Positions 20,133-35,140 of a DNA stretch of 64,000 nucleotides are shown here, piece after piece. The translations under genes were made by a program, and so were the position numbers. This stretch comes from Terriglobales bacterium (lineage in GTDB: Bacteria > Acidobacteriota > Terriglobia > Terriglobales > Acidobacteriaceae): assembly GCA_035573675.1 (NCBI GenBank), contig DATMAB010000027.1, positions 248,001 through 312,000 on the forward strand, read 5' to 3'. Numbering within the stretch: the first letter of the stretch is position 1; each line of letters begins with the position of its first letter. A model generated the notes under the pieces. It was not told the DNA's origin, ran no database searches, and worked only from the letters and a program-made list of their open reading frames with translations.

Positions 20133-22793
20133 ATGTCTGACGAGCAGAACCCCACTCTTCCGTTCGATTCCGAGCGCGGCCAGCCGCCCGCCGCCGGCGG
20201 CCCCACCGGTCCCGGCGCCGCCAATCTCCTCCCCATCAACATCGAGGAGGAAATGCGCCGCAGCTATCTCGATTATTCAATGAGTGTGATCATCGGGCGG
20301 GCGCTGCCCGATGTGTACGACGGCCTGAAGCCGGTGCATCGCCGCGTGCTCTACGCCATGTATCAGGAGGGACTGCTCCACAACAAGCGCTACTCGAAGT
20401 GCGCCGGCGTAGTGGGCGAGACGCTGAAGCGCTACCACCCGCACAATCCGGAAGCGCTCTACGACGCGCTGGTCCGCATGGCGCAGGATTTCACCATGCG
20501 CTATCCGCTGGTGGACGGCCAGGGGAACTTCGGCTCGGTCGATGGCGACCCGCCCGCGGCCATGCGATACACCGAGTGCCGCATGACCCGCATCGCCGAG
20601 GAGCTGCTCGCCGATATCGACAAAGACACCGTCGACATGGTCCCGAATTACGACAACTCGACGGTCGAACCGACGGTACTTCCCACCAAGATCCCCAACC
20701 TGCTGGTGAACGGGGCCAGCGGCATCGCCGTCGGCATGGCCACTTCAATTCCTCCCCACAATCTGACGGAGATTGTGGACGCCACCATCCTGCTGGTGAA
20801 CAAGCCGGATGCGAGCCTGGGCGAAGTGCTGAAAATCGTGCAGGGGCCGGACTTCCCCACCGCCGGGTTCATTCACGGGCGCAGCGGCATCCACGAGGCG
20901 TACAAGACCGGGCGCGGGCGGTTCATGATGCGCGCCAAGTCGGGCATCGAGCGCATCGGCAAGGAGCGCGAGGCCATCGTGGTGACCGAGATCCCCTACC
21001 AGGTCAACAAGTCGAAGCTCATCGAGCGCATCGCGGAGCTGGTGAACGACAAGGTGGTGGACGACGTAGCCGACATTCGCGACGAGAGCGACCGCGACGG
21101 CATGCGCATCGTCATCGAGCTGAAGCGCGGCGCCGAGGCGCAGATCATCCTGAACCAGCTCTACAAGCACACCCAGATGCAGGAGTCGTTCTCGATGATC
21201 TTCCTGGCCGTGGTCAACGGCCAGCCCAAAGAGATGGGGCTGGTGGAGGCCATCCAGCACTTCATCGACCACCGCGTGGACGTGGTGCGCCGGCGCACCG
21301 TGTTCCTGCTGGCGCGGGCGCGTGAGCGCGAGCACATCCTCGAGGGCTACAAGATCGCGCTCGACAACCTGGACCTGATCATCAAGCTGATCCGTGGCAG
21401 CGCCTCGCGCCCGGAAGCCAAGCAGGCGCTGCTCGAAGCCAAGCTCAAGATCACCGACAAGGAGATCCTGGAGCACACCGGGCGCGGAGGCTCGCTCACC
21501 CCGCGGCAGGCGGACGCCATCCTGGAACTGCAGCTCTACCGTTTGACCAAGCTCTCGACCGACGAGATCCTCACCGAACTCAAGGAGGTGCGCGAGCGCA
21601 TCGCCGAGTACGAGTCGATCCTCGCGTCGGAGAAGAAGCTGCGCGGCGTGATCGTGAAAGAGCTGGAAGAAGTGAAGAAGAACTACGGCGACGCGCGCCG
21701 CACCGTCATCCAGGACGAGACCACGGAGATCACCATCGAAGACCTCATCGCCGATGAGCAGGTGGCGGTGACCGTCTCGCATTCCGGGTACCTGAAGCGC
21801 ACGCCGATTTCCACCTACCGGCAGCAGAAGCGCGGCGGCACGGGACGCATCGGCATGCGCACCCGCGACGAGGACTTCGTCGAGCAGCTCATCATCGCCT
21901 CGACGCACGCATATCTGCTGGTGTTCACCAACACCGGGCGCGTCTACTGGCTGAAGGTGTACGAGATTCCCGACGTGGGGCCGGCGGGCAAGGGCAAGGC
22001 CATCGCCAGCTTGGTTTCATTGCAGCCGGGGGAGAGCGTGCGCGCCATTCTGAACGTGCGCGATCTCGAGGAAGAAGGCAAGTATGTCTTCTTCGCCACT
22101 CGCAACGGCACGGTGAAGAAGACCGAGCTGAAGGACTTCTCGAACGTGATGTCGCGGGGCATCATCGCCATCGGCATCGACAAGGGCGACGAACTGGTGG
22201 CGGCGCGCCTGACCGACGGCAACCAGATCGTCTTCCTGGCCTCGCACGAAGGCATGGCCATCCGCTTCGAGGAGAGCGACGTGCGTCCCATGGGACGGCC
22301 CGCCTACGGCGTCCGCGGCATGGATCTTGAGAAGGGCGACTACATCGTGGGCATGGCCGTGACCCCGAAAGAAGAGCCTGCACCGGCCGGGAAGAAGAAC
22401 GGGAAAGCCAAAGCTGAGGCCGGCGCCGAAGGCGAGGCGCCGGAGACTGAAGAGCACTACACCATGATCCTCTCGGTGACGGAGAACGGTTACGGCAAGC
22501 GCACCGACGTGGGCGAGTACCGGCTGCAGTCGCGCGGCGGCAAGGGCGTGATCAACGTCAAGACCACGGCGCGCAACGGCAAGGTTTCCGCCATCATGCT
22601 GGTGAGCGAGACCTCGGAATGCATGGTCATCAGCCAGTTCGGCAAGATCATCCGGGTGCAGACCAAGGAGATCCGCGAGGCCGGCCGCTCGACGCAGGGC
22701 GTCCGCCTGCTGCAACTGGAACCCGGCGACAAGGTGGCCGCGGCGGTAGTCATCCCGCCGGAGGAACGGAACGGGAACGGATCAGTTCAGTGA
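20133..22793 (+). CDS. gyrA: DNA gyrase subunit A
   Basis: This 886-residue protein is the DNA-cleaving subunit of gyrase. It has the breakage-reunion domain ([40 protein letters not shown]), catalytic Tyr146 in [11 protein letters not shown], and the [11 protein letters not shown] loop. The C-terminal beta-pinwheel carries the gyrase box, seen as [11 protein letters not shown]. The quinolone region reads [17 protein letters not shown], where E. coli has GDS before A-V-Y-D (see findings). An Ala/Glu/Lys-rich insert lies at about residues 745-775. No Shine-Dalgarno precedes the ATG; an 'agaactgagaact' repeat does. It overlaps the next, convergent gene by seven bases. Confidence 0.97.
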
Positions 22794-23796: not shown

Positions 23797-24891
23797 CTAC
23801 CCTGCAATCGCTGACATCCGGCCTAGGGCCGTAGATCTTGCAGACTCTGACTGGTCTAACACATCATCCAATCTTGGACCCTTACCTACGTATGAAATGG
23901 GAACATGAAAACTGTGCTGGAGATGAGTGAGAAAATTCTTTGCCTTTTGCGACAATGACCCCGCTTCGACAACCTCTCGGTTCGCAAAGTCCAGGTAGTC
24001 AAGGCAATTAACCGCGAGTCTGGTCGGCTGATTCGCGCGAATAGCAGAGGCAGCTGAATCCCATTCGAACCTCCCAATTCTGCGGAGTTTCTGAGTCACT
24101 GTTGTGAACTCGTTTATGGGATGCGGATAGCCACTTTCTCTTCGGACCGTTTCCCAATCAAGCTCGTCTACGAGCTTACCCGCTTGATTACCCGCAACGC
24201 GTATGGGAAAGGTCCGGAAAACCACAACAATCTCCGTGACGCGCAGTGGACTTAGGCCCACTTCGCTCAGAAATCCTGCAGCAGTAGTGTCACGTGACGT
24301 GGTCTTGGGATAGTGAGGCGAGTGGTAGAGCGATAACCCGAAGCCCTGTGTGCCTTCTACAAGCACCTTTCGGCCGCGATCTAGGGCCTCGTTGGCCTCT
24401 CCGGACACGTCGGTCAGCAGTCCCTTGAGCCACGGGTGCTGCTCAGCCGCATCGCGCGCCAGGCGAACATCGGCGCCGCGCAAAGCTCTCCTTGCAACGG
24501 CAGAGCCGACCCCGCAGAGAGTCGAGCTGAGACGCTCGCGAAGCTTGAGGCGGGCTTCGTTCTCCCTGTCGGATTCCTCGATGACCATGGCGTTGCGGTC
24601 GATACCGACGCGGTTTGCACCAAGGTCGAAGGCCTTCAGCTCGCTCCTTAGAACCTGCAAGTCAATCAACGCGCCGGCGGGAATGAGCAGGCGTGTCTCG
24701 CGGCGTATGTAGCCAGTAGGCAACTGACGCAGAACCTTTGTGGTTCCATCCGGAGCGACGAAAGAATGGCCGGAGTTGGGGCCACCGCAGCGGATGCAGA
24801 TGTCGATCTCTTCCTGGAGGGTGATGAAAGCCGAGATTTTGCCTTTGCCTTCGGAGCCGTACTGCCCGCCAACCACAACCCAGAGACTCAC
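23797..24891 (-). CDS. Short adenylosuccinate-synthetase family protein, PurZ-like (Ser at the catalytic Asp)
   Basis: This 364-residue enzyme belongs to the PurA/PurZ GTPase-like synthetases, and is shorter than bacterial PurA (about 430) but close to archaeal PurA and phage PurZ. The P-loop reads VVVGGQYGSEGKGK: Ser13 replaces the Asp of G-D-E-G-K-G-K that activates IMP. The partner His42 is kept in GGPNSGHS. VEGTQG (178-183), TTSRDTT (197-203) and FPIRVAG (228-234) are the other ligand loops. Phage PurZ, which joins aspartate to dGMP, also has Ser here as I recall. It starts with GTG overlapping the kinase stop by four bases (GTGA). The substrate is inferred, not shown. Confidence 0.8.
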   Translation of the reverse strand: MSLWVVVGGQYGSEGKGKISAFITLQEEIDICIRCGGPNSGHSFVAPDGTTKVLRQLPTGYIRRETRLLIPAGALIDLQVLRSELKAFDLGANRVGIDRNAMVIEESDRENEARLKLRERLSSTLCGVGSAVARRALRGADVRLARDAAEQHPWLKGLLTDVSGEANEALDRGRKVLVEGTQGFGLSLYHSPHYPKTTSRDTTAAGFLSEVGLSPLRVTEIVVVFRTFPIRVAGNQAGKLVDELDWETVRRESGYPHPINEFTTVTQKLRRIGRFEWDSAASAIRANQPTRLAVNCLDYLDFANREVVEAGSLSQKAKNFLTHLQHSFHVPISYVGKGPRLDDVLDQSESARSTALGRMSAIAG

Positions 24892-25445
24892 GCGAGCCCT
24901 CCTGAATGAATCTGCTGCAAGACGCCTTCTATGGTCGAGTACAGTTCGTCGAGTGGGCCCTGGTTCTGCAGCACAAAATCTGCGCTGGGCCTGAGCAATG
25001 GAATCTGCTGCTCCACCGGGTGAGAATCCGCCGCCTGGAAGTCAGCGAAGGTGGCGAAACCCCTCCTCGCCTGCAAGCGGCGCCATCGGGTCTCCGGCGG
25101 ACTGTCTATATACAGCAGATGGTAGTGCTCTGCAAAGCCGTCCCGCAGAGTGGTGTGGTCGAGGGAATGACGGAGGCCATCGACTGCGTAGCTACCCTCC
25201 TGCCCGATCTTCTGGACCAGACGGGCGTTAAGCTCGGCTTGCTTGCCTCCGGCCATTACTTCCCAACCGATCCCCTGCAGCTGGTTCTTGGCAGTGGGGT
25301 CCGCCGCCAGCCACTCGGCGAGAACCTGGCTATACCGCAAATAGTGGAACCCGTGGGCCGACTCCAGATACTTGCCTACCGAGGTCTTTCCTGCACCTAT
25401 GGGGCCCGTAATACCCAGGACAAGTCGCTCGGGCTGGCGGGACAT
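24888..25445 (-). CDS. P-loop kinase of the dNMP kinase / dephospho-CoA kinase type
   Basis: This 185-residue protein has a Walker A motif GPIGAGKTS at the start, a small helical lid, and YIDSPPETRWRRLQARRG as an Asp/Arg-containing lid segment like that of deoxynucleoside monophosphate kinases. It is encoded between the exonuclease (17-base gap) and the PurA/PurZ-like synthetase (4-base overlap), so it probably acts on a nucleotide made or consumed by that enzyme. Dephospho-CoA kinase is a fold alternative but would not fit the context. Confidence 0.7.
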   Translation of the reverse strand: MSRQPERLVLGITGPIGAGKTSVGKYLESAHGFHYLRYSQVLAEWLAADPTAKNQLQGIGWEVMAGGKQAELNARLVQKIGQEGSYAVDGLRHSLDHTTLRDGFAEHYHLLYIDSPPETRWRRLQARRGFATFADFQAADSHPVEQQIPLLRPSADFVLQNQGPLDELYSTIEGVLQQIHSGGLA

Positions 25446-25462: not shown

Positions 25463-27025
25463 TCAGTGCGCCGCTTCGTGTCCGAGGGCGTCGAGCCCGG
25501 TGGACTTGAGAATCTCCGAGAGCTTGGGGTAGTTGATTTTGGGTGACCGGGGCACAATCAAGTAGTCCTCCGCCGGCGTTCCCAGAGCAATGAAGTCATC
25601 CGCCAGATAGAACAGCCCTACCAGCGCGGAGGTGATGGCGTCGACCTCGTCGTGACTGATCTTCTCCGTCAGGAACGACCCTTCAATACCCGCGCGGTGC
25701 AGACCCCATTTCAGCTCTTCCAGACTGGCGCCCTTCCTGGGGATGCCCAGCAGGTCCTGAGCGGCGCCTGGGTAGCTTTCAATCACGGTCAGGCCGGCCT
25801 CGCGCAATCTCTGCGCCAGACGCATCCCACGCGTCGTAAGGCCCTTCATCGTGGGCAGGAGACACCAGAAAACTGAGATGCCCATGCGCTTGAGGGCCAG
25901 CTCGCATTTCCGGTAAATCGGCGAGTCTCCGAGTTTATCCGGATCGACCACGCCTTCTGGGAAGGAGAGGGGCGAGTCGATAGAGACAAGGTCCGGCTTG
26001 GATTCGACGGTTGCCTTGACCAACTCATCATCCGTATGGAGCGGCCGGGTTGACACTGCTGCGCCTACCATAAGGGCCCATCCAGTTGCTCGCTTCGCGC
26101 TCCCCGTGAGGTCAATTCCGACAATCCGAGGACTAGCGGTGGCCGTTTTTCGCAGCAGTCCAGACACGAGGTTTGATTCAGCAGGCGGGGGGACAATCGC
26201 GCGAGTGGCGGTTGACTTGCGCGCACGGGGAAGCTCGGCCACGCCAGTGAAAACGGGCGCAATGGAGTGGTTAAGGAAAGTGGCAGTGTGCCGGGAGAGC
26301 TTGTCGTAAGCAATCTCGACGATTGCCTTCAAGTGCACGACGTCTTCGGTGTTGTACTGGATGAGCCGCTCCAGCGCAGACTGGTCGCCCCGCTGGTATC
26401 GGGCCCAGAGGACTGTGGCGTCGAAGCCGGACAGTTCCTCGACTTCTGCTGCGCGACGGATCCTTAGACGTTTTTCTACTTCCTTCAAGCCCCCTGTGTA
26501 CCCAAGCCGGCGCATGACCCAACGCAGGTCGATGTGGACGGGCGGAATCGCCATGTCTGGGAAGGCGAGCCTGAGGAAGCGAAGATCGAAACCGGAGCCG
26601 TTGAATGTGACCACCACAGAGTGCTTCTGAAGCTCTTTGGGAAGGTCGTCGAGGTTCTGGCCTTCCACGAACACTTTGTACTTGCGGCCATCGTATAGGC
26701 CCACAAGGGTGACACTGTCGAAAACCGTCGACATCCCCGTAGTTTCAATATCGAGATAGACACACTCGTCTGCGAACTCAGGAAACACCCGCCACGCCTC
26801 GCCTAGAGCTGTGAGGCGCTCGAAGAAACCGGCGTCCTTGCGACGAACAGCCTCCCAGGACTGAGGGATGTATTGGTCGAGCTTCTCCTGCAGGCGGGCG
26901 CCGACGAAACCAAAGCGCTTCTCGAAGCGGTCAGCGTCCTCCCAGGAGCGGATGCCGTGGCTCCAGAGGTCGCGCTCAGTGTGCTTGCCGATGCCCGGGA
27001 TGTGGATGAACGTCTGCCGGAGCAT
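25463..27025 (-). CDS. DEDD-type exonuclease (YprB-like) fused to a DUF429 RNase H-fold domain
   Basis: This 520-residue protein begins with a helix-hairpin-helix-like segment (FIHIPGIGKHTERDLWSHGI). A YprB-type RNase H-like exonuclease domain spans about residues 80-245, with acidic residues D92 and E94 (DIETTG), D147 (GFDLRF), D166 and D228, plus Y224 in YNTED (the DEDDy pattern). After a linker, residues about 300-500 match DUF429: VGIDLTGSAKRATGW, VSIDSPLSFPEGV, VIESYPGAAQDLLG and SHDEVDAITSA. It is the first gene of the leftward operon, with AAGGTGA before the ATG. It is probably a DNA- or RNA-degrading component. Confidence 0.75.
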   Translation of the reverse strand: MLRQTFIHIPGIGKHTERDLWSHGIRSWEDADRFEKRFGFVGARLQEKLDQYIPQSWEAVRRKDAGFFERLTALGEAWRVFPEFADECVYLDIETTGMSTVFDSVTLVGLYDGRKYKVFVEGQNLDDLPKELQKHSVVVTFNGSGFDLRFLRLAFPDMAIPPVHIDLRWVMRRLGYTGGLKEVEKRLRIRRAAEVEELSGFDATVLWARYQRGDQSALERLIQYNTEDVVHLKAIVEIAYDKLSRHTATFLNHSIAPVFTGVAELPRARKSTATRAIVPPPAESNLVSGLLRKTATASPRIVGIDLTGSAKRATGWALMVGAAVSTRPLHTDDELVKATVESKPDLVSIDSPLSFPEGVVDPDKLGDSPIYRKCELALKRMGISVFWCLLPTMKGLTTRGMRLAQRLREAGLTVIESYPGAAQDLLGIPRKGASLEELKWGLHRAGIEGSFLTEKISHDEVDAITSALVGLFYLADDFIALGTPAEDYLIVPRSPKINYPKLSEILKSTGLDALGHEAAH

Positions 27026-27088: not shown

Positions 27089-27127
27089 TTTATCCCTTGT
27101 TTTTCCACAGTGAAGCGGAGGTCTCCT

Positions 27128-27523
27128 GTGAAACGTGGAAGAATCCTGTCGCCCGGGGAAAGGCTCTTGAGGCAGCGAGTGTCAAGAGAGTTTCGAGAGA
27201 TAAAGACAGCCAAAGGCGCGAAGGCAGCGGCAGACGAGCTTGGCGTTTGCCTGGCCTCGTTCTACAAGTATGTGAGGGGTGACGATCTGCCTCGGTTCGA
27301 CGTTCTTAGGCGAGCTCATGAAATGTGGAACATCAACTTCGATCACATCGACTTCGAGGAGATTTTTCGGAAGTACAGAGGGGCGCAAGGCATTCGGGAG
27401 GAGAAGCAGTACGTTCTTCCGTTCATCGAAAACGTCCGCCAACAGGACGTCACGATTCTGCATGTAGCAGCCAGGCGGCCGAATGCGCTCGAACTCCGAG
27501 TAAGAATCAGATTTGCAAGCTAG
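27128..27523 (+). CDS. HTH (XRE-like) regulator of the divergent nucleotide operon
   Basis: This 131-residue protein has a helix-turn-helix at about residues 20-60 (FREIKTAKGAKAAADELGVCLASFYKYVRGDDLPRFDVLRRAHEMW), which resembles Cro/CI-type repressors. The rest (ENVRQQDVTILHVAARRPNALELRVRIRF) may sense a ligand or form dimers. The GTG at 27128 is chosen because GGAGG lies six bases upstream; a GTG at 27110 is the longer option. It is divergent from the four-gene operon, with a palindromic operator between them, so autoregulation and operon control are likely. Its stop overlaps the next, convergent gene. Confidence 0.7.
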   Translation: MKRGRILSPGERLLRQRVSREFREIKTAKGAKAAADELGVCLASFYKYVRGDDLPRFDVLRRAHEMWNINFDHIDFEEIFRKYRGAQGIREEKQYVLPFIENVRQQDVTILHVAARRPNALELRVRIRFAS

Positions 27524-28035
27524 GTCGACCCGTCGGGCGATGTCGCTGCCGGCGGCAGCCACGACTTCTTGTAGCGTTCCGGATGGGCAATCCCCTTGCC
27601 CTGAGATTCACGCTTCGCCCCCAACAGATGCCAGGCTTCCCGGTAGCGTTCGGTGCGGCTGGAACTCTTGGGCACGTGGGGGAAGAGCTTGACTTCGTTG
27701 GTGGGAAGGGTGTGGGCGGGGATGATGTACCAGGCGTCGTAGGGGACAACCCAGGCGGCGAGGAAGTCGATGTCGTCAGGGGTGAACGACCGCGTATCGC
27801 CCTGGAGGCGGCAGCCGATGCGGAAACAGCGTGAGTTGGGAACGTTGGTGGAGCGGACCTGGACGCGCACCAGTCGCTTGCGGCGGCGGTTTGGGCCGCG
27901 GTCCACGATGGCGTCGTAGGCGCAACTATCGCCGAAGGGCTGGGAGACGGCCAGGCCACGGGAGAGCGCCTGGAAGAGGAAGGCGCATTCGGCGCGCTCG
28001 CCGACGAGTTTGGGGTTGCGGGAGGGACGGGACAT
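27520..28035 (-). CDS. PD-(D/E)XK nuclease-like protein, copy 1
   Basis: This 171-residue protein resembles the PDDEXK_5 type (intron-endonuclease-like). E13/E16 lie in KLVGERAE, D41 in AYDAIVD, and Q59-V-R61 in RVQVRST; the usual K of the (D/E)XK or QXK motif is Arg here. Residues 9-45 are identical to the gene at 34709. The C-terminus (WHLLGAKRESQGKGIAHPERYKKSW) is shared with a broken copy at 34471-34690. The stop codon overlaps that of the regulator. Whether it still cuts DNA is uncertain because of the Lys-to-Arg change. Confidence 0.6.
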   Translation of the reverse strand: MSRPSRNPKLVGERAECAFLFQALSRGLAVSQPFGDSCAYDAIVDRGPNRRRKRLVRVQVRSTNVPNSRCFRIGCRLQGDTRSFTPDDIDFLAAWVVPYDAWYIIPAHTLPTNEVKLFPHVPKSSSRTERYREAWHLLGAKRESQGKGIAHPERYKKSWLPPAATSPDGST

Positions 28036-34394: not shown

Positions 34395-34470
34395 CAAAAG
34401 CAGCCATCAGTCATCAGCCGTCAGCACTCAGCCACACCCGTGCCTCCCCAGAGACGCGAGTGGCGGACCG

Positions 34471-34690
34471 CCAACTTTTCTTGTAGCGTTCCGGGTGAGC
34501 GATCTCGCCCTCGCGCTTACCGCGCGGGCCGCCCCAAAGATGCCAGGCTTCCAGAACCGCTTTCCGTCTTGCGCTCTTCGCCTTCCGTAAGCAGATCCCA
34601 GCGTTCGCGCCAAGTCTCGAAGCGGCCATGGCTGTTCTCGACATGAGGAGCGAACCAGAGCCAGTGGTGGCGGCGGAGGAGCCGGGCAGA
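34471..34690 (-). pseudogene. Broken remnant of a third PD-(D/E)XK-like gene
   Basis: On the minus strand, bases about 34690-34585 read WLWFAPHVENSHGRFETWRERWDLLTEGEE, which matches the tail of the gene at 34709 (SLVFWPHVEKSRGRWEKYKEAWHLLTAEG). In another frame, 34551-34471 read EAWHLWGGPRGKREGEIAHPERYKKSW, matching the tail of the gene at 27520. No start or N-terminal domain is present. It therefore looks like joined and frameshifted C-terminal remnants. A 'cagccatcagtcatcagccgtcagcactcag' repeat fills 34398-34435. Confidence 0.6.
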
Positions 34691-34708: not shown

Positions 34709-35140
34709 TCAGCCTTCAGCCGTCAGCAAGTGCCAGGCCTCCTTGTACTTTTCCCAGCGGCCTCGGCTCTTCTCAACATGCGGCCAGAACACTAGGGATC
34801 CGCAATCCAGGATTCTGGCCGGAATCAGGTACCAAGTGTTTCGGGGCACGATCCACACGGCAAGCAACTCAATGTCGGCCTCTGTGTAGTTCTCCTGCTT
34901 GTTCCGGCCATGGGAAGCGCTCACTTGAAAGCCACGATGTGTGCCGTAGTGCATCCTTGTCGACCGGACCTGGACGCGGAAGAGGCGCTTGCCGTTATCC
35001 ACGATAGCGTCGTAGGCGCAGCTATCGCCGAAGGGCTGGGAGACGGCGAGGCCGCGGGAGAGCGCCTGGAAGAGGAAGGCGCATTCGGCGCGCTCGCCGA
35101 CGAGTTTGGGGTTGCGGACGGGGCGGGAGGGACGGGACAT
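34709..35140 (-). CDS. PD-(D/E)XK nuclease-like protein, copy 2
   Basis: This 143-residue protein has the same N-terminal domain as the gene at 27520: RNPKLVGERAECAFLFQALSRGLAVSQPFGDSCAYDAIVD, then FRVQVRST with Arg instead of the catalytic Lys. The middle differs (YTEADIELLAVWIVPRNTWYLIPARIL) but has the same pattern of Trp/Tyr residues. It lacks the last about 30 residues of copy 1. The upstream leader is also duplicated. The two copies and the remnant flank the winged-helix/TPR pair. Confidence 0.6.
   Translation of the reverse strand: MSRPSRPVRNPKLVGERAECAFLFQALSRGLAVSQPFGDSCAYDAIVDNGKRLFRVQVRSTRMHYGTHRGFQVSASHGRNKQENYTEADIELLAVWIVPRNTWYLIPARILDCGSLVFWPHVEKSRGRWEKYKEAWHLLTAEG

Follow-up and report, generated by a model that had tools for sequence, protein, structure and literature searches.

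PurZ is the key enzyme of the Z-genome phages, where it makes the DNA letter Z. Within the window, a 64,000-nucleotide stretch of an acidobacterial genome, one gene encodes a homologue of adenylosuccinate synthetase (PurA) with serine at the position of the catalytic aspartate. What does a PurZ-like enzyme do in a bacterium, and which genes accompany it?

A PurA homologue without the catalytic aspartate

A sequence-only reading of the locus had pointed out the Ser-for-Asp replacement, which we confirmed. The open reading frame fits 23797-24891 exactly but is on the minus strand, with a GTG start, the plus strand across this interval was full of stops, and the product carries the P-loop GGQYGSEGKGK together with both GGPNSGHS and TTSRDTT, as described. 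The match to Pfam PF00709 (E 9.7e-42) showed a genuine PurA-superfamily protein, and there were further matches to PHROG 1211, "2-aminooxy adenylosuccinate synthetase" (E 4.3e-64), to archaeal PurA (2d7u/5k7x; E 2e-65), and to PurZ0 (7vf6; E 6e-35). Among solved structures, the highest identity was to archaeal PurA (39-40%).

We compared 21 cellular proteins of this type, the window protein included, from Acidobacteriota and from Rhizobiales/Methylobacterium. The catalytic-Asp position held Ser in 18, Gly in 3 (L004-L006), and Asp in none, with the flanking G-x-E-G-K-G and the His kept in all 21, so the loss of Asp is neither a sequencing error nor a lone substitution. Since three relatives have Gly, the common property is the loss of Asp, which suits a pocket opened up to take the 2-amino group of (d)GMP rather than a catalytic Ser. 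A neighboring residue does not supply the Asp, as no relative in the alignment has a new Asp beside the P-loop. The source genome, which is 99% complete, has a second, canonical purA with the Asp-bearing P-loop GAQWGDEGKGK (E 1.3e-179; G000:C11:14708-15961), a gene that the earlier reading had proposed to look for.

That reading also held that a chromosomal gene of this kind would widen the PurZ family beyond phages. This stands for bacterial chromosomes and plasmids but not for non-phage members as such, four archaeal PurZ-like sequences with Ser or Gly having been reported earlier (PMC12884076). The novelty is therefore in the bacterial members and their gene context. The same survey, with at most two sequences per phylum, reported no bacterial PurZ-like member (PMC12884076), and our literature search found no report of one, although an earlier mention in work on nucleotide-centric conflict systems is possible. 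Viral contigs scanned with the window protein and a kinase-PurZ fusion gave no relatives, in a scan that reaches close relatives only. Two loci (L039 and L040) that matched the Ser P-loop pattern in DNA were discarded, as their translations had no PurA features. The large Flavobacterium phage MaF61 encodes a very divergent, 447-aa Ser-type PurZ homologue in which Leu occupies the Arg303 position and Ile replaces the 2'-contact Val.

Placement in the family and predicted chemistry

A maximum-likelihood tree (LG+C20, 39 proteins) contained one split, with support of 100/99, between 30 Ser/Gly proteins and 9 Asp proteins. The Asp side consists of bacterial PurA, Pyrococcus PurA, and a rhizobial enzyme from a 7-deazapurine cluster, and the Ser/Gly side consists of all phage PurZ and PurZ0 proteins in the set and the cellular groups A, B, and C. 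The branching order within the Ser/Gly side was not fixed (AU p range 0.16-0.35); grouping all phage enzymes in a single clade was not rejected (AU p 0.157), nor was doing so for all cellular enzymes (0.224). Two further active-site positions follow the split. PI-RV is found in every Ser/Gly protein, including 21/21 cellular ones, where PurA has xT-RV, and Arg303 is absent from 18/21 cellular proteins, with Lys in 16, as in phiVC8 and in the window protein. The earlier suggestion of a PurZ-type rather than a PurA-type protein is borne out by the split and these two positions, and by its sequence the window protein groups with the Ser/Gly (PurZ) enzymes. The tree position and the co-varying sites indicate that the PurZ clade reaches bacterial chromosomes and plasmids. 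The window protein has Ser at Asp13 and scored below the PurA thresholds (188.8 of 395.55 bits for TIGR00184 and 304.3 of 368 bits for PRK04293). It also scored 221 bits against the NCBIfam PurZ model NF038379, whose cut-off is 300, which argues for a new lineage of the PurZ clade outside the curated phage-type family.

In the S-2L structure, the equivalent Ser adjoins the 2-amino group of dGMP, and in PurA, Arg303 contacts the 2'-OH, so its change removes the ribose contact (PMC8342488). Ser is present in all 147 phage PurZ proteins (PMC12884076). In the guanine-donor site, 21/21 cellular proteins retain the Asp, as do the two PurZ0 proteins examined; phiVC8 has Asn. The Ser beside the 2-amino group, the change of Arg303, and the kept donor-site Asp together predict dGMP as the acceptor and GTP as the probable donor, and the enzyme likely converts dGMP to N6-succino-2-amino-dAMP (dSMP). 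The original PurZ0 paper reportedly describes a preference of PurZ0 for GTP. This preference is worded the opposite way round in PMC12884076, and given the conflicting accounts, the donor is the least sure part of the predicted chemistry. Both AlphaFold models were of low confidence (pLDDT 54 and 47), and fold searches with them confirmed only the PurA and Dcd/Dut folds.

The operon, its relatives, and their surroundings

The operon on the minus strand consists, from 5' to 3', of genes for an RNase_H_2/DUF429 protein, a kinase, PurZ, and a Dcd-like protein with predicted transmembrane (TM) helices (Dcd-TM), with spacings of 17, -4, and 8 bp (Table 1). The divergent small gene upstream of it is kept in most acidobacterial loci of the same architecture (type A). 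The window also holds repeated, related PDDEXK_5-type proteins or fragments.

Table 1. Positions of the features discussed, in the window unless a locus (L) is given
Feature	Position	Strand	Remark
gyrA, flank, outside module	20133..22793	plus	tail to tail with operon
Dcd-TM: dCTP-deaminase/dUTPase-fold domain and ~3 predicted TM helices (~residues 221-306), 333 aa	22787..23788	minus	Pro in place of the deaminase Glu
PurZ-type adenylosuccinate synthetase homologue, 364 aa, P-loop GQYGSEGKGK	23797..24891	minus	ORF, profile, tree, active-site positions
P-loop (deoxy)nucleotide-kinase-like protein, 185 aa (GPIGAGKTS)	24888..25445	minus	4-bp overlap with purZ start
HHH + RNase_H_2 + DUF429 protein, 520 aa, first gene of operon	25463..27025	minus	domain matches
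Divergent small protein, possible HTH regulator	27110..27523	plus	weak Pfam matches only
PDDEXK_5-type proteins or fragments	27520-28035, 34414-34644, 34709-35140		
MaF61 PurZ homologue	L037 3968-5311		
Dcd-like proteins without PurZ	L089 6769-7425, L090 1-657, L088 6986-7972		
~456-aa protein	L030 9730-11106		
Peptidase-macro protein	L053 7264-8646		
Fragment similar to the peptidase-macro protein	L052 7617-8171		
DDE transposase-like ORF	L055 10113-10700		
Type-A purZ remnant	L060 7959-8366		genome G055
7-Deazapurine cluster	L034 7375-15715		R. leguminosarum plasmids
Defence neighbors, type B/C			SIR2-HerA L030; RdrA/RdrB L031; GajAB L033; GajA L062
Defence neighbors, type B/C			KwaB L064; DrmD/DrmMI L053; PD-T4-6 + capP L054; HmaA L052

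In the window the kinase has a gene of its own; on rhizobial plasmids and in other acidobacteria it forms one protein with PurZ. The separate and fused kinase domains matched each other in a profile comparison (probability 98.8, E 4.6e-17), and the window kinase matched the PADLOC dCTPase model (1.3e-15).

The N-terminal ~170 residues of Dcd-TM match dCTP deaminase/dUTPase in sequence (8y1w; E 5.9e-14) and in a fold search. Ser111, Arg115, and Glu138 of E. coli Dcd appear to be replaced by Val, Tyr, and Pro, and the region was also aligned independently to a solved structure. Pro at the catalytic Glu138 position was found in 9/9 Dcd-TM copies, and hydropathy predicted one to three TM helices in 8/9. 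With the deaminase residues lost and TM helices predicted, Dcd-TM is less likely to be a deaminase than an output protein that sits in the membrane and binds a ligand; it is a candidate sensor or effector. Three Dcd-like proteins without PurZ (L088-L090) also lack the deaminase Glu, two of them with a C-terminal hydrophobic helix, and proteins of this type may form a broader family of candidate outputs that bind nucleotides. Genomes G545 and G643 encode shorter Dcd-like membrane proteins in the absence of PurZ, so this pairing of domains also occurs outside the module.

We counted occurrence within 399 genomes of the class and a plasmid collection. Matches at E<1e-20 were present in 10 of the class genomes; that in G556 was a PurA with Asp. 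The full-length RNase-H/DUF429 gene was present in 4/399 genomes, as was the Pro-type Dcd-TM gene, in each case among the 5 with type-A PurZ (Fisher 4.8e-9 for each with PurZ, a value that is indicative only as the genomes are related). Architecture A, that of the window, is kept in L004-L008, L048, L049, and also L057, with L006, L007, and L057 cut by contig ends (L006 before Dcd-TM); at L050 it occurs without the RNase-H/DUF429 gene and the kinase. In architecture B, the kinase is fused to PurZ and followed by DUF7002, at 13 loci in all, 8 on Rhizobiales plasmids (7 Rhizobiaceae, 1 Methylobacterium) and 5 in acidobacteria. On the plasmids it is accompanied by a YfbR-like HD gene and a gene of unknown family, whose ~456-aa product is kept beside all rhizobial copies (L030 and orthologues). 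Architecture C, in Sinorhizobium medicae, consists of HD, PurZ, and Dcd-TM and links A and B. The gene after PurZ varies, being Dcd-TM in acidobacteria and S. medicae and DUF7002 after kinase-PurZ elsewhere. The kinase is absent from L050 and L029 and so is not essential to the module.

A PDB profile search with DUF7002 gave no convincing relative. We considered an ADP-ribosyltransferase for DUF7002, a hint taken from a capP/DarG-like upstream protein, and set it aside as no such structure appeared in the profile search. In that protein (L053), a capP-like M78 peptidase is joined to a DarG-like macro part; its gene immediately precedes those for kinase-PurZ and DUF7002, and a comparable fragment is present in L052.

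The operon was acquired horizontally and is of foreign origin. Congener G001 has a gyrA that is 92% identical in DNA, its match to the window stops at the gyrA stop codon (window 22791), and the operon was not found anywhere in its genome. The operon has a G+C content of 0.54-0.61, versus 0.64 in gyrA. The L004 copy also lies behind gyrA, and relatives are found on plasmids, most of them conjugative. At L055, a DDE transposase-like ORF interrupts the kinase-PurZ gene, a natural knock-out, and genome G055 retains a 135-aa type-A purZ remnant (65% identity) where congener G215 has the full operon. The transposase split and the G055 fragment indicate that the module is both gained and lost.

We compared hand-picked large neighbors at the 14 type-B/C loci with 4 control stretches of the same plasmids, as a descriptive comparison. 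Clear matches to named defence systems (Gabija, RADAR, SIR2-HerA, Kiwa, DISARM, Hma, and PD-T4-6) lay beside 8/14 loci, and the controls gave one clear match, AbiEii. Two other loci (L063 and L029) had helicase-level matches only, and no named system was found near L032, L051, L055, or L061. Ten large proteins from the flanks of seven type-A loci gave no clear defence match and one weak LeoA match, and the case for defence therefore comes from architectures B and C. The gene set around PurZ, its foreign character, and the defence-island context of its relatives make a conflict system a likelier function than Z-DNA, and a defence role of the module is probable.

Candidate functions and comparison with known systems

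The reading that we prefer, and hold to be an even call, is a horizontally acquired, undescribed, probably anti-phage module based on nucleotides. In the first step, the PurZ-type enzyme would very probably attach Asp to a purine nucleotide that bears a 2-amino group, dGMP being the likeliest, with GTP as the probable donor; the host lyase PurB could convert the resulting dSMP to dZMP. In the second step, the adjacent or fused P-loop kinase may phosphorylate the product or supply the substrate. In the third step, an exchangeable output protein would bind the unusual deoxynucleotide and then harm the infected cell, the putative output being here the dCTP-deaminase-fold domain, without deaminase residues, on its membrane anchor and elsewhere DUF7002. 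dGMP rises when phages digest host DNA, which makes it a plausible trigger. A constant PurZ, usually with the kinase, and a variable output gene form a pattern typical of signal-based immunity, and we infer a signaling step. Kongming offers a precedent, with dITP as an immune signal made with a kinase's help (PMC12948488). More tentatively, and with less than even confidence, we propose a new immunity class with a 2-amino-(succino)adenine deoxynucleotide as the signal, a cellular PurZ, and exchangeable outputs, in which phage PurZ would share ancestry with immune enzymes.

It is possible, if somewhat doubtful, that the module instead attacks the nucleotide pool, with PurZ and the kinase draining dGMP/dGTP or making dZTP that poisons or mis-marks phage DNA and the last gene encoding a nucleotide or DNA enzyme. 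PurZ would consume dGMP, and the kinase could push its product to dZDP; folds of nucleotide enzymes occur both in the last protein (dCTP deaminase/dUTPase) and in the YfbR-like HD proteins encoded next to the rhizobial copies, and anti-phage dCTP deaminases, part of whose sequence resembles the kinase, act on dNTP pools. However, the Dcd domain has Pro for the catalytic Glu in 9/9 copies and predicted TM helices in 8/9, and the last gene changes while PurZ stays, a better fit to a signal with exchangeable outputs.

It is unlikely that this is a DNA-modification or metabolic module with which the host, in the manner of Z phages, produces 2-aminoadenine nucleotides destined for its own DNA or for that of a mobile element. 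PurZ clade membership agrees with such a role, DNA is a possible substrate of the RNase-H/DUF429 protein, and the HD (YfbR-like) genes are reminiscent of DatZ, but profile searches of the operon genes found no match to DpoZ or to DatZ/MazZ or DutZ/DmtZ companions, and the occurrence is very patchy. The HD proteins were rejected as DatZ, with a match to phiVC8 DatZ of only 12-15 bits. Biosynthesis of a small molecule, such as a nucleoside antibiotic, by an enzyme acting on an unusual purine is more improbable still. It is prompted by a distinct PurA-like gene on rhizobial plasmids, in the 7-deazapurine cluster with folE, purB, queC, and queE, but that enzyme keeps Asp and groups with PurA, and the window operon has no such genes. 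The cluster (L034) also encodes a 6-carboxytetrahydropterin synthase, an IMP-dehydrogenase-like protein, a phosphoribosyltransferase, and a nitrile hydratase subunit and looks like a 7-deazaadenine-type pathway. We give least credence to an ordinary PurA paralogue that acts on IMP with another residue as the base, which the top structural identity to archaeal PurA would fit but which the missing new Asp beside the P-loop, the three co-varying positions, the tree side shared with PurZ, and the canonical purA all oppose.

Deep bacterial PurZ lineages, found in mobile operons with a kinase and exchangeable output proteins and often beside known immune systems, suggest a role for unusual purine deoxynucleotides in bacteria-phage conflict. 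With the parts list, two questions can be tested directly, namely how PurZ originated and whether an immune system of this kind exists. If the immune-signal reading is true, the PurZ enzymes of phage Z-DNA share ancestry with cellular immune enzymes.

Like PurZ/PurZ0 of the Z-genome phages (phiVC8, S-2L, Archimedes; PDB 6fm1, 7odx, 7vf6), the window protein has Ser for Asp, the kept His, PI-RV, Lys for Arg303, and a short, archaeal-like length, and it falls on the same side of the tree. Unlike phage PurZ, the bacterial proteins are encoded on chromosomes and plasmids, form deep lineages of their own, and share an operon with a kinase and a membrane Dcd-like protein. With the archaeal PurZ-like sequences (PMC12884076) they have in common a cellular origin and Ser or Gly at the same position. 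The last gene shares the fold of its N-terminal domain with dCTP deaminase/dUTPase (Dcd, Dut; PDB 2v9x, 8y1w) but has lost the Ser111, Arg115, and Glu138 equivalents and is predicted to be membrane anchored. The kinase resembles part of the AvcD-type anti-phage dCTP deaminases, although it has no deaminase domain and is separate or fused to PurZ. If our proposal is right, the module would resemble Kongming (KomABC, as described in PMC12948488) in deriving an unusual deoxynucleotide from a purine-converting enzyme and a deoxynucleotide kinase, and it would differ in using a PurZ ligase instead of KomA, a kinase of its own where Kongming's comes from the phage, and other output proteins.
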